From Desulfobacterales bacterium (GTDB lineage: Bacteria; Desulfobacterota; Desulfobacteria; Desulfobacterales; JAHDSC01): a stretch of DNA of 64,000 nt. The stretch lies in contig JAHDSC010000021.1 in the NCBI GenBank assembly GCA_018432925.1, positions 1-64,000 of the forward strand, written 5' to 3'. Under the pieces are notes generated by a model. That model ran no database searches. It had not been told where the DNA came from and worked only from the letters and a program-made list of their open reading frames with translations. Each line of letters opens with the position of its first letter. The first letter of the stretch is position 1. A program made the translations under genes and the position numbers. This document shows, piece after piece, positions 47,520-51,284 of the stretch.

Positions 47520-48854
47520 TTACAGAGATTCTTCGTTTTGTAAAGAACCCTGACCGGTTGCTTCCAGCACATTGAGCCACAGGTTGCCTGTCGGGTTAAC
47601 CTGTTTTCGTTTTCCGGCGGACGCGCTGATTGGCAGATGCACAAATTGATTGTTCCATCGACCGATCAGGAGTTTTGTTTTTCCTGCAAGTCCGGCATGA
47701 ACCGCCGCGCGTCCTAAAAAGCTGCAAAACACCCGGTCATTGGCATTTGCCGGCAAACTTCTTATTATATAGCTGGGATCGATGTATTTTAGAGCGATAT
47801 CTATTTCTCTGGTCTTGAAATAGGATGTTATCGATTCTTTCAAAAACAGTCCGATATCCTTCAGCCTGACATTGCCTGATTCGTCAAATTCTTTTTTGTT
47901 ATCTTTGAAAAACTTCTGTCCTGCTCCTTCGGCGGCAACGATTACCGCGTGCCGTCTGAGGCTTAGACGCTTTTCCAGGGCAGACAGAAAGCCGTTTGGA
48001 CCCTCGAGATCAAAATCGACCTCCGGTATCAGTACGAAATTTACATCCTGTTGGGCGAGTGAAGCCGTAGCGGCAATGAAACCGGAATGTCTTCCCATCA
48101 GCTTGATAAGACCGATTCCATTCGGATACCCTTCCGCTTCATTATGCGCTCCTTTGATTGCCTGGGTGGCTACGTCAACAGCCGTATCAAAACCAAAAGA
48201 CTGGGATACCAGGTGGATATCGTTATCAATGGTTTTGGGTATTCCAACGACACTGATTTTCAATCCTCTTTCTGCGATGTTATCCGCGATTTTGCTGGCC
48301 GCCATAAGCGTTCCGTCTCCACCGATCATAAAAAGGACGCCAATGTTCATTCTTTCGAGGCTGTCGACGATTTCTTCTATAGCCTGGGGGCCTCTCGAGG
48401 ATCCGAGAATCGAACCGCCCATTTTTGAGATATTGACAACGGAATCCGGTTTGAGTTCCATCACATCGTGACCGTATGATGGAATAAATCCCTGAAGACC
48501 GTAACGAATACCGTAAATATGCCGTACCCCATACCCGTAGTATAGTCCCAAAACAATCGACCGAATAATATCGTTCAGGCCGGGGCAAAGCCCGCCGCAT
48601 GTGACAAGTGCGCATCGGAGTTTGATCGGATCAAAGTAGATTTTATTTCTGGGCCCGGCCAGTTCAAATGAAGTGATCGTTTTGCCGGCCGTGATCGTTC
48701 TGCACAGGTTGTTTACATTGACGTCAATTGTGATCCGGTCATCTTCAGATACAAATCGGCTGATCGGAGTTGCGTTTCTCCATTTTTGAAGGGGAGAGGG
48801 TATTTTGGACTCTCCGAGAGTCGGTATTTTTGTTTCAATCCTATTGTAATCCAT
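47520..48854 (-). CDS. 6-phosphofructokinase (plant/protist-like group)
   Basis: The 444-residue enzyme phosphorylates fructose 6-phosphate. CGGLCPGLNDIIR, GGDGTLMAA and IPKTIDNDI are the key motifs. The residue at the ATP/PPi-discriminating site of GGDGT is Gly (ATP type), while the second site is Lys (IPKTIDND) as in PPi enzymes; this mix is known from ATP-dependent plant and trypanosome enzymes. An N-terminal extension of about 75 residues is present. It is the third gene of kdsD-dapA-like-pfk, 10 nt behind its neighbour, with aaaggg before the ATG. Confidence 0.88.
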   Translation of the reverse strand: MDYNRIETKIPTLGESKIPSPLQKWRNATPISRFVSEDDRITIDVNVNNLCRTITAGKTITSFELAGPRNKIYFDPIKLRCALVTCGGLCPGLNDIIRSIVLGLYYGYGVRHIYGIRYGLQGFIPSYGHDVMELKPDSVVNISKMGGSILGSSRGPQAIEEIVDSLERMNIGVLFMIGGDGTLMAASKIADNIAERGLKISVVGIPKTIDNDIHLVSQSFGFDTAVDVATQAIKGAHNEAEGYPNGIGLIKLMGRHSGFIAATASLAQQDVNFVLIPEVDFDLEGPNGFLSALEKRLSLRRHAVIVAAEGAGQKFFKDNKKEFDESGNVRLKDIGLFLKESITSYFKTREIDIALKYIDPSYIIRSLPANANDRVFCSFLGRAAVHAGLAGKTKLLIGRWNNQFVHLPISASAGKRKQVNPTGNLWLNVLEATGQGSLQNEESL

Positions 48855-48864
48855 GGCATCCCTT

Positions 48865-49824
48865 TCAAACGATACGGTAAGATTCCAAGAATGTTTTCAA
48901 ATTGTCCAGCCATTTTGGGCTTTCCGGTTTGCCCGGTAAGATCGTATGATCGCGTTCGATGATTCCGATTTCCCGGAGCATTCTTTTCATGTAATAAGCC
49001 GGTGCGCCGCTATACAATGAATAAAGGGAATGCAGCATGATGCCGGTTTCCCAAAGGCTTGACTGACGATTTGAATCGTATCCTCCGATGTTGGAACGAT
49101 GAAGTGAAGATTTTGTTATTTCATACCATTTTACAGGGGTTAAATTGCTTCCGCCCGCAACCACACCGCCCATGCCCGGGTTTTTTAAAAATACGATTTC
49201 ATCCCCGTCATAGAAAGTAAAATCATTACGAAACCGAACCGCAGCGTGATAGTTGAATGAACGCTTTAAATTTCCGGTGTATATAATGCCGTTTATTGCG
49301 GGGTGTTGTGCCATTTTTTTGAGGACAGCGGTCCGTATGTTTTTGTGCTTTACCTGGCGTTTGCACTCATGAACCAAGGCAGGGAGGTTTTCGATCACCA
49401 TGGGAAAGCGTGTCTGTGTCATGAGGTCCCGATACATTTGCGGAAGGCCTCTATTGCTGTGATATAAAAGAGGGCAGTCCACCCAGAATAGATTTCCGGG
49501 ATACTCGATGCGGTTTATAAAAGATTCCACATCTGCCATGAAGGTAAACGTATTTTCAAGATTTTGCCCGGTGATATTGATGAATACGGCGCGTCGTCCC
49601 CGTATCGTTTCAAGAGCCGATTCAACCAGATAATGTCGGGTATTTCCAGGAAGCAGATGTCCTTCTCCCCAGATTGGATCCGCAAGGAGTATCCCGTCGA
49701 CATGTCGCTCGATGTGGCCCAGAAGGCTTTCAAACGAGCGTAAATCAAGTGTATGATCCTCTTTCAAAGGTGTTATGACGGGGCAGATAAGGCCTTTTGG
49801 AGGTACTGGATATTTAGGTTCCAT
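48865..49824 (-). CDS. Dihydrodipicolinate synthase-fold protein lacking catalytic residues
   Basis: The 319-residue protein is clearly a DapA/N-acetylneuraminate lyase TIM barrel (GLICPVITPLKEDHTLD at the start, and matching secondary structure order). Against DapA by eye, the Schiff-base lysine is replaced in INGIIYTGNL, the tyrosine of the YNVPSRTG motif is Glu in IENLP, and the GTTGE threonines are gone (DPIWGEG). It should not form the normal Schiff base. Its ATG overlaps the kdsD stop by 11 nt, and pfk follows. Role unknown; a repurposed or regulatory barrel in Kdo/sugar metabolism is plausible. Confidence 0.72.
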   Translation of the reverse strand: MEPKYPVPPKGLICPVITPLKEDHTLDLRSFESLLGHIERHVDGILLADPIWGEGHLLPGNTRHYLVESALETIRGRRAVFINITGQNLENTFTFMADVESFINRIEYPGNLFWVDCPLLYHSNRGLPQMYRDLMTQTRFPMVIENLPALVHECKRQVKHKNIRTAVLKKMAQHPAINGIIYTGNLKRSFNYHAAVRFRNDFTFYDGDEIVFLKNPGMGGVVAGGSNLTPVKWYEITKSSLHRSNIGGYDSNRQSSLWETGIMLHSLYSLYSGAPAYYMKRMLREIGIIERDHTILPGKPESPKWLDNLKTFLESYRIV

Positions 49825-50788
49825 TGAATTTAAAACCGCCTTTGCCTAATATATCATGCAGATGTAAAATCCCTTGAACTTTTCCGGATGGACTGGTTAT
49901 CGGCAGTATCGTTATCTGGTATTTTTCCATCATATTCAGCGCGTCGTAAGCCGCAGTATTCGGACCGACGGTTCGAGGATTTTTGGTCATGGCATCTTCG
50001 GCCATCAACTCAAAAACAGGCGTTTTTTTAAGAATTAAACGCCGGATGTCTCCGTCGGTGATAATACCGACAAGGGTACGATCTTTTTTAACAACCAGCG
50101 TTGCGCCCAACTTAAGACAATCGATTTTACTGAGCGCCTCCTCCATTGTGGACCCAGCAAAAACATAAGGGACGGATTTCCCGGTTAACATCAAATCGCT
50201 GACTTTTTTGCAAAGCCGCTGCCCGAGGGCGCCGCCTGGGTGAAACCTTTTGAAATCGCTGGATTTGAATTTCTTTTTGTGAATCAGCACAACGGCAAGA
50301 GCATCGCCCATAGCGAGAAGCGCTGTGGTGCTGGCAGTGGGAGCAAGGCCTAAAGGGCAGGCTTCCCGCCCCACCCCGGTATCAATCACGAGATCGCTCA
50401 GGCCGGCCATTGTGGAAGTTTTATTGCCGGTAAAAGTAATAATTTTGCATCCGATTCTGCGAATGTTGGGTAGAAGGATGTTCAGTTCATCCGTTTCACC
50501 GCTGTTTGAAAGGGCTAAAAAGATGTCATCCGGGCATACGATACCCAAGTCTCCATGCATCGCCTCGACAGGATGCAAAAAAAAAGACCTTGTCCCGGTG
50601 CTGTTAAGCGTGGCCACGATTTTCTGCCCCACGAGGCCGGATTTTCCGATACCTCCCACGATGACACGAACTTTGGTAGAATAGATAAGTTCAACCATTT
50701 GGGTGAAATTGTGGTCGATACGATCGATTAAATTAAGGATGCCTTCTGCTTCTATCTTGAGGACCTCAATTGCCTGTTTAATAATCAT
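49814..50788 (-). CDS. kdsD: D-arabinose 5-phosphate isomerase (KdsD/KpsF)
   Basis: The 324-residue isomerase turns ribulose 5-phosphate into arabinose 5-phosphate, the first step to Kdo of lipopolysaccharide. The SIS domain (GGIGKSG, HPVEAMHGDLG, SNSGETDEL) takes residues about 30-200, and two CBS domains follow (about 205-320, IITDGDIRR). ATG 50788 matches the usual start; a TTG at 50827 extends the frame without support. It heads the kdsD-dapA-like-pfk operon. Confidence 0.93.
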   Translation of the reverse strand: MIIKQAIEVLKIEAEGILNLIDRIDHNFTQMVELIYSTKVRVIVGGIGKSGLVGQKIVATLNSTGTRSFFLHPVEAMHGDLGIVCPDDIFLALSNSGETDELNILLPNIRRIGCKIITFTGNKTSTMAGLSDLVIDTGVGREACPLGLAPTASTTALLAMGDALAVVLIHKKKFKSSDFKRFHPGGALGQRLCKKVSDLMLTGKSVPYVFAGSTMEEALSKIDCLKLGATLVVKKDRTLVGIITDGDIRRLILKKTPVFELMAEDAMTKNPRTVGPNTAAYDALNMMEKYQITILPITSPSGKVQGILHLHDILGKGGFKFNGT

Positions 50789-50965
50789 AGACCCGTAGTT
50801 TCCCGTGCGTGTTTTTCGATCCTGCAAAATCGTTTTTGTAAATTTATGTCGATCCGTGAATATGTCCGGGATCGTATATTACTCCAGAGAAGGAAATCAA
50901 AAATATACCCTTTTATATAGGCAAGCTTGGCAATTTTTAAATCAAAAATCAAGCGCTCTTTTTAT

Positions 50966-51086
50966 GAAACTCCCGCAGAATACCCCGTCATTTATGGCGG
51001 GGATGAATGCGGTGCAGGAGTAAGGGGGATGCAATCCCCATCCTTGCCCTTTTCAAGAAGCCCCGCCTTTTAAGGCGGGGAGTTTC
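50966..51086. mobile_element. Structured 121-bp element resembling a TnpB/IS605-type end or RNA
   Basis: The element is bounded by gaaactccc and its complement ggggagtttc. It contains three further stems: accccgtc/ggcgggga, gggggatg/catcccc-like (gggggatgcaatcccc), and ccccgcc/ggcgggg. Such nested GC-rich ends with aagccccgcc..ggcgggga are known at the ends of IS200/IS605-type (TnpB) elements. No tnpB remains. It is either an IS-end remnant/MITE or a free-standing structured RNA. Confidence 0.5.
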
Positions 51087-51284
51087 ACTGAAAAACAGGC
51101 GCCTTGCATCTACAAAAAATTCTCTGGAGTTTTTATCTGTATCTTCATCCTTATGGATCGATGCCCTCCGATCGTTGCAACGGGAATCTTCAGCAGTGGA
51201 GACTTTTCACCGATTTTTGAATTCGTTTGCGGATACAAATCAGAGCAATATTCGTAGAAAGGGTTGATTTTCGCTACATTTGAC

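Follow-up and report, generated by a model that had tools for sequence, protein, structure and literature searches.

In the window, the whole 64,000-nt stretch of contig JAHDSC010000021.1 from a Desulfobacterales bacterium that was analyzed here, the minus strand carries an intact open reading frame (positions 48865–49824, ATG start) for a 319-aa protein that Pfam, sequence alignment, AlphaFold2 and Foldseek identify as a lysine-less DapA-fold protein, referred to below as the barrel. Directly upstream on the same strand lies kdsD (49814–50827), encoding an arabinose-5-phosphate isomerase (SIS plus two CBS domains; TIGR00393, 310 bits against a cut-off of 204), which is the sole full-length copy in this genome and has a TTG as its listed start and an in-frame ATG at 50786–50788. 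The end of kdsD (FNGT and stop) overlaps the ATG of the barrel gene by 11 nt (49814–49824), and a minus-strand 6-phosphofructokinase gene of the PRK06830 type (pfk, 47520–48854) starts 10 nt downstream of the barrel gene edge at 48865; both the overlap and this spacing stand as the initial annotation gave them. Between kdsD and an aminotransferase gene, an inverted repeat (GAAACTCCCGC...GGCGGGGAGTTTC) was noted by eye only within positions 50960–51090; it looks like the end of a mobile element or like a terminator. A second match to the PFK domain (107 bits) was found at G000:C143:12356–12985, within a 744-aa open frame.

By descent, the barrel is a member of the DHDPS/NAL superfamily. It scored 36.8 bits with the Pfam DHDPS profile (PF00701, cut-off 22.1) and 47.5 bits with the dapA equivalog TIGR00674, far below the cut-off of 206. 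The AlphaFold2 model, built from an alignment of 22 family rows, reached a pLDDT of 91.1 and a pTM of 0.91, and Foldseek returned solved DHDPS/NAL structures as its best matches (TM 0.75–0.81 by query length; DHDPS match at E 7e-17), showing a DHDPS-type (beta/alpha)8 barrel at only 16–21% sequence identity. With DapA it shares the fold with C-terminal helices, the Gly-Glu after strand 2 and the equivalents of Tyr107 and Asn134; it differs in an insert of about 8 residues after strand 5 and in the residues on which DapA chemistry depends, and its sequence is 17–21% identical to DapA. These were located by alignment to the DapA of the window genome itself and to E. coli DapA, in which T44, T45, Y107, Y133, R138 and K161 were checked. 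The catalytic Lys161 corresponds to Ile181 (codon 49282–49284, minus strand), Tyr133 to Glu145 (49390–49392, minus strand), Thr44-Thr45 to Ile51-Trp52 (49669–49674, minus strand) and Arg138 to Leu150, while Tyr107 is retained as Tyr121. The retained barrel and the replaced lysine, tyrosine and two threonines, as claimed in the initial annotation, were thus confirmed, the barrel by structure prediction and the replacements by alignment. Since three defining active-site features are missing from its sequence, the barrel does not belong to the class I aldolases. NAL/NanA, YagE and HOGA, which are class I ketoacid aldolases with the same fold and are represented among the matches by the NAL of C. 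glutamicum and the YagE of E. coli, use the Schiff-base lysine that the barrel lacks.

The loss of the lysine extends to the whole family. A single-sequence scan of genome contigs returned no relatives, whereas an alignment-based scan did find them. Orthologues with 38–49% identity share the gene order, and a profile search placed the family in 51 of the 395 sampled Desulfobacterota genomes (about 13%). A scan with two family motifs across 84,980 prokaryote species, which picks up near matches only, so that remoter members elsewhere are possible, yielded 71 loci with titles such as Desulfobacterales, Deltaproteobacteria and Syntrophobacterales, including Desulfacinum infernum, D. hydrothermale and strain NaphS2; among plasmids, there was no match. 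In the resulting alignment of 123 rows (111 distinct sequences by a stricter count), the Lys161 column at the end of strand 6 holds Ile in 93, Val in 18, Leu in 6, Met in 5 and Cys in 1, and lysine in none, which supports the initial annotation's claim of a conserved protein. Tyr133 is present in 15 of 112 members and is otherwise replaced by His, Gly, Asp, Glu and others; the Thr-Thr/Ser pair after strand 2 that holds the ketoacid carboxylate is absent in the window and kept by no family signature. Some members retain a single one of these residues, either Tyr133 or a Thr at position 45. The family forms a separate branch that is monophyletic against DapA (SH-aLRT 99 in a quick tree) and has invariant motifs of its own (VDYP..YH.NR.LPQ, HKNIRT, FYDGDE and GG.N..P.W). 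A median dN/dS of 0.14 was obtained for pairs of close family members, and the family is under purifying selection. An in-frame TGA in the barrel gene was observed at L148 (G457), and at L083 the barrel is split into two frames; these are either errors of metagenome-assembled genomes (MAGs) or real inactivations.

Next, gene neighborhoods were compared across those distinct loci whose upstream sequence spans 600 nt or more. KdsD, which is a partner in the genome and not a homologue of the barrel (its SIS-CBS fold is unrelated), was encoded immediately upstream, in the same orientation, in 101 of 108 loci, or in 102 if the split L083 is included, where the front half of the barrel frame does follow kdsD; relatives show a similar kdsD/barrel overlap. 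Six true exceptions without an adjacent kdsD remained (L108, L117, L213, L214, L215 and L216, with just 648 nt of upstream sequence at L117), and at G571 the barrel gene adjoins a lipid A acyltransferase gene, with KdsD not there. Of the kdsD-pfk operon proposed in the initial annotation, and of the triplet whose co-occurrence in Desulfobacterota was in question, the kdsD half therefore holds, while pfk is a lineage-specific neighbor found downstream in 27 of 99 loci. The partnership with kdsD, and not that with pfk, is the conserved link of the barrel. In one clade (f109), the wider setting is Kdo/lipid A synthesis: WaaA, KdsD, the barrel and a lipid A acyltransferase are encoded one after another, and KdsB is found some 2 kb away from KdsD. 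In a few other loci, a transketolase gene comes after the barrel gene. Among 12 Desulfobacterales genomes examined that lack the barrel, pfk directly follows kdsD in 10 and lies one gene away in 1, and because the kdsD-pfk pairing thus stands in 11 of 12, KdsD needs no barrel in those genomes. In another observation, kdsD and pfk are separated by a DAHP synthase-chorismate mutase gene (L200:3077–4288) in one genome that lacks the barrel.

LPS synthesis in these bacteria is little studied. The pathway genes were inspected in 40 genomes, some of which carry the barrel and some of which do not. KdsA turned up in all 40 (39 over cut-off), and KdsD, KdsC, KdsB (over cut-off) and transaldolase were each found in 38. 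A true DapA over cut-off was present in 25 of 26 barrel-carrying genomes, the exception being a 92% complete MAG (G178), and the window genome encodes its own on contig C3. As KdsA, KdsB, KdsC and a true DapA each have a gene of their own, every canonical step is covered, and a role of the barrel as a substitute for KdsA, KdsB, KdsC, transaldolase or DapA was ruled out. One further MAG, the other genome of the window genome's family (G001, 97% complete), carries KdsA, KdsB and KdsC and has neither a KpsF/KdsD-type isomerase nor the barrel.

In place of the lost residues, the family conserves a set of its own. Asn124, Asn146, Gly184, Glu209, Phe212, Pro216, Gly220 and Trp233 are invariant in the 123 rows, with Glu209 representing a mere Asp-to-Glu change against DapA, and Asp116, Tyr121, His122, Arg125, Asn162, Arg164, Thr165, Lys169, Arg188 and Tyr192 are near-invariant. 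Of the 18 polar or aromatic positions with a conservation of at least 90%, 15 fell on the C-terminal, active-site face (P=0.0012, which is indicative only, because the zone, extending from the strand end through the first turn of the helix that follows and covering 47% of positions, was revised after a shorter first zone had given P=0.044). Because charged residues are conserved on this face and the family is under purifying selection, the barrel likely holds a ligand pocket there, and the near-invariant charged set favors a working pocket over a dead scaffold.

Taken together, the barrel probably does a new job beside KdsD. A dead scaffold is less likely than an enzyme or a phosphorylated-sugar-binding subunit that works without a Schiff base. 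Our leading interpretation, tentative and of somewhat less than even confidence, is that the barrel has been repurposed for the supply of Kdo and lipid A, has a pocket for a phosphorylated sugar and most likely acts as an enzyme by chemistry of another kind. It is placed in this supply because of its neighbors kdsD, WaaA, KdsB and the acyltransferase. The putative pocket would bind a Kdo-branch metabolite, either a phosphorylated sugar or a sugar acid, with Ru5P, A5P, Kdo8P or Kdo as candidate ligands and Arg125, Arg164, Arg188 and Lys159/169 as putative anion contacts. Catalysis would most likely proceed by acid-base or metal-assisted chemistry and not through a pyruvate enamine, and Asp116, His122, Glu209, Asn124 and Asn146 are the candidate catalytic residues suggested by conservation. 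Translational coupling would balance the amounts of KdsD and the barrel for the supply of Kdo and lipid A. Counting against this interpretation, the presence of KdsA, KdsB, KdsC and transaldolase leaves no pathway gap to fill, KdsD does without the barrel in the Desulfobacterales genomes described above, six loci have no kdsD beside the barrel gene, and Glu209 differs from DapA by no more than the Asp-to-Glu change.

The absence of a missing pathway step suits the alternative that the barrel is a non-catalytic pseudoenzyme subunit, which would bind a metabolite such as A5P, CMP-Kdo or a hexose phosphate and regulate or stabilize KdsD by contact, an account that we regard as possible though rather unlikely. 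The adjacency to kdsD in 101 of 108 loci, many of which show overlapping starts, speaks for it, and the optional presence of the barrel fits a regulator. A single 675-aa reading frame joining KdsD and the barrel also exists (L052:5166–7190, the same as L078); it was set aside as Rosetta-stone support, since a short piece of the kdsD end is duplicated in tandem at the junction and the genome is a MAG, and the fused frame may have arisen by misassembly or by recent mutation. Against a KdsD partner stand the six loci without kdsD alongside, including L216 with the lipid A acyltransferase gene next to the barrel instead, and the invariant acid/base pocket residues, which exceed the needs of a scaffold. 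An enzyme of glycolysis or the pentose-phosphate pathway tied to pfk or transketolase, for which the KdsD link would reflect shared sugar-phosphate chemistry and not Kdo, seems improbable: pfk does lie downstream in two distinct regions of the tree and transketolase in a few loci, but 72 of 99 loci have no downstream pfk, and the neighbors in clade f109 are WaaA, KdsB and the lipid A acyltransferase. It is very doubtful that the barrel remains a class I aldolase or lyase with a relocated lysine, since the mostly-Lys columns 169 (116/123, the rest Arg, Ala or Ser), 159 (103) and 280 (102) include no invariant one, position 169 is located in the helix before strand 6, and the Thr carboxylate pair is gone, as is Tyr133 in most members. 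A DapA paralogue in decay, preserved only through its place in the operon, would agree with the lost active-site residues and with the absence of the gene from many relatives, including G001, but is scarcely credible for a monophyletic, phylum-wide family with invariant residues and low dN/dS, being contradicted by purifying selection.

The hallmark of the DHDPS/NAL superfamily is lysine enamine chemistry, and KdsD catalyzes the entry step to the synthesis of Kdo, the lipopolysaccharide sugar. Automatic annotation would probably label the barrel proteins as dihydrodipicolinate synthase, and in the open-licence papers searched, no account of the KdsD-barrel pair or of a lysine-less DHDPS family was found; the family is conserved in bacteria of the sulfate-reducing type and, in the open-licence literature found, undescribed. 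It could be, though we put this forward with reserve, that this DapA-fold family without Schiff-base chemistry carries out an undescribed phosphorylated-sugar or Kdo reaction in the lipid A/core biosynthesis of Desulfobacterota. If true, it would clearly exemplify how an old barrel can be fitted with a rebuilt active site, with the lysine lost family-wide and the family selected phylum-wide, and it would point to an unrecognized component beside KdsD.
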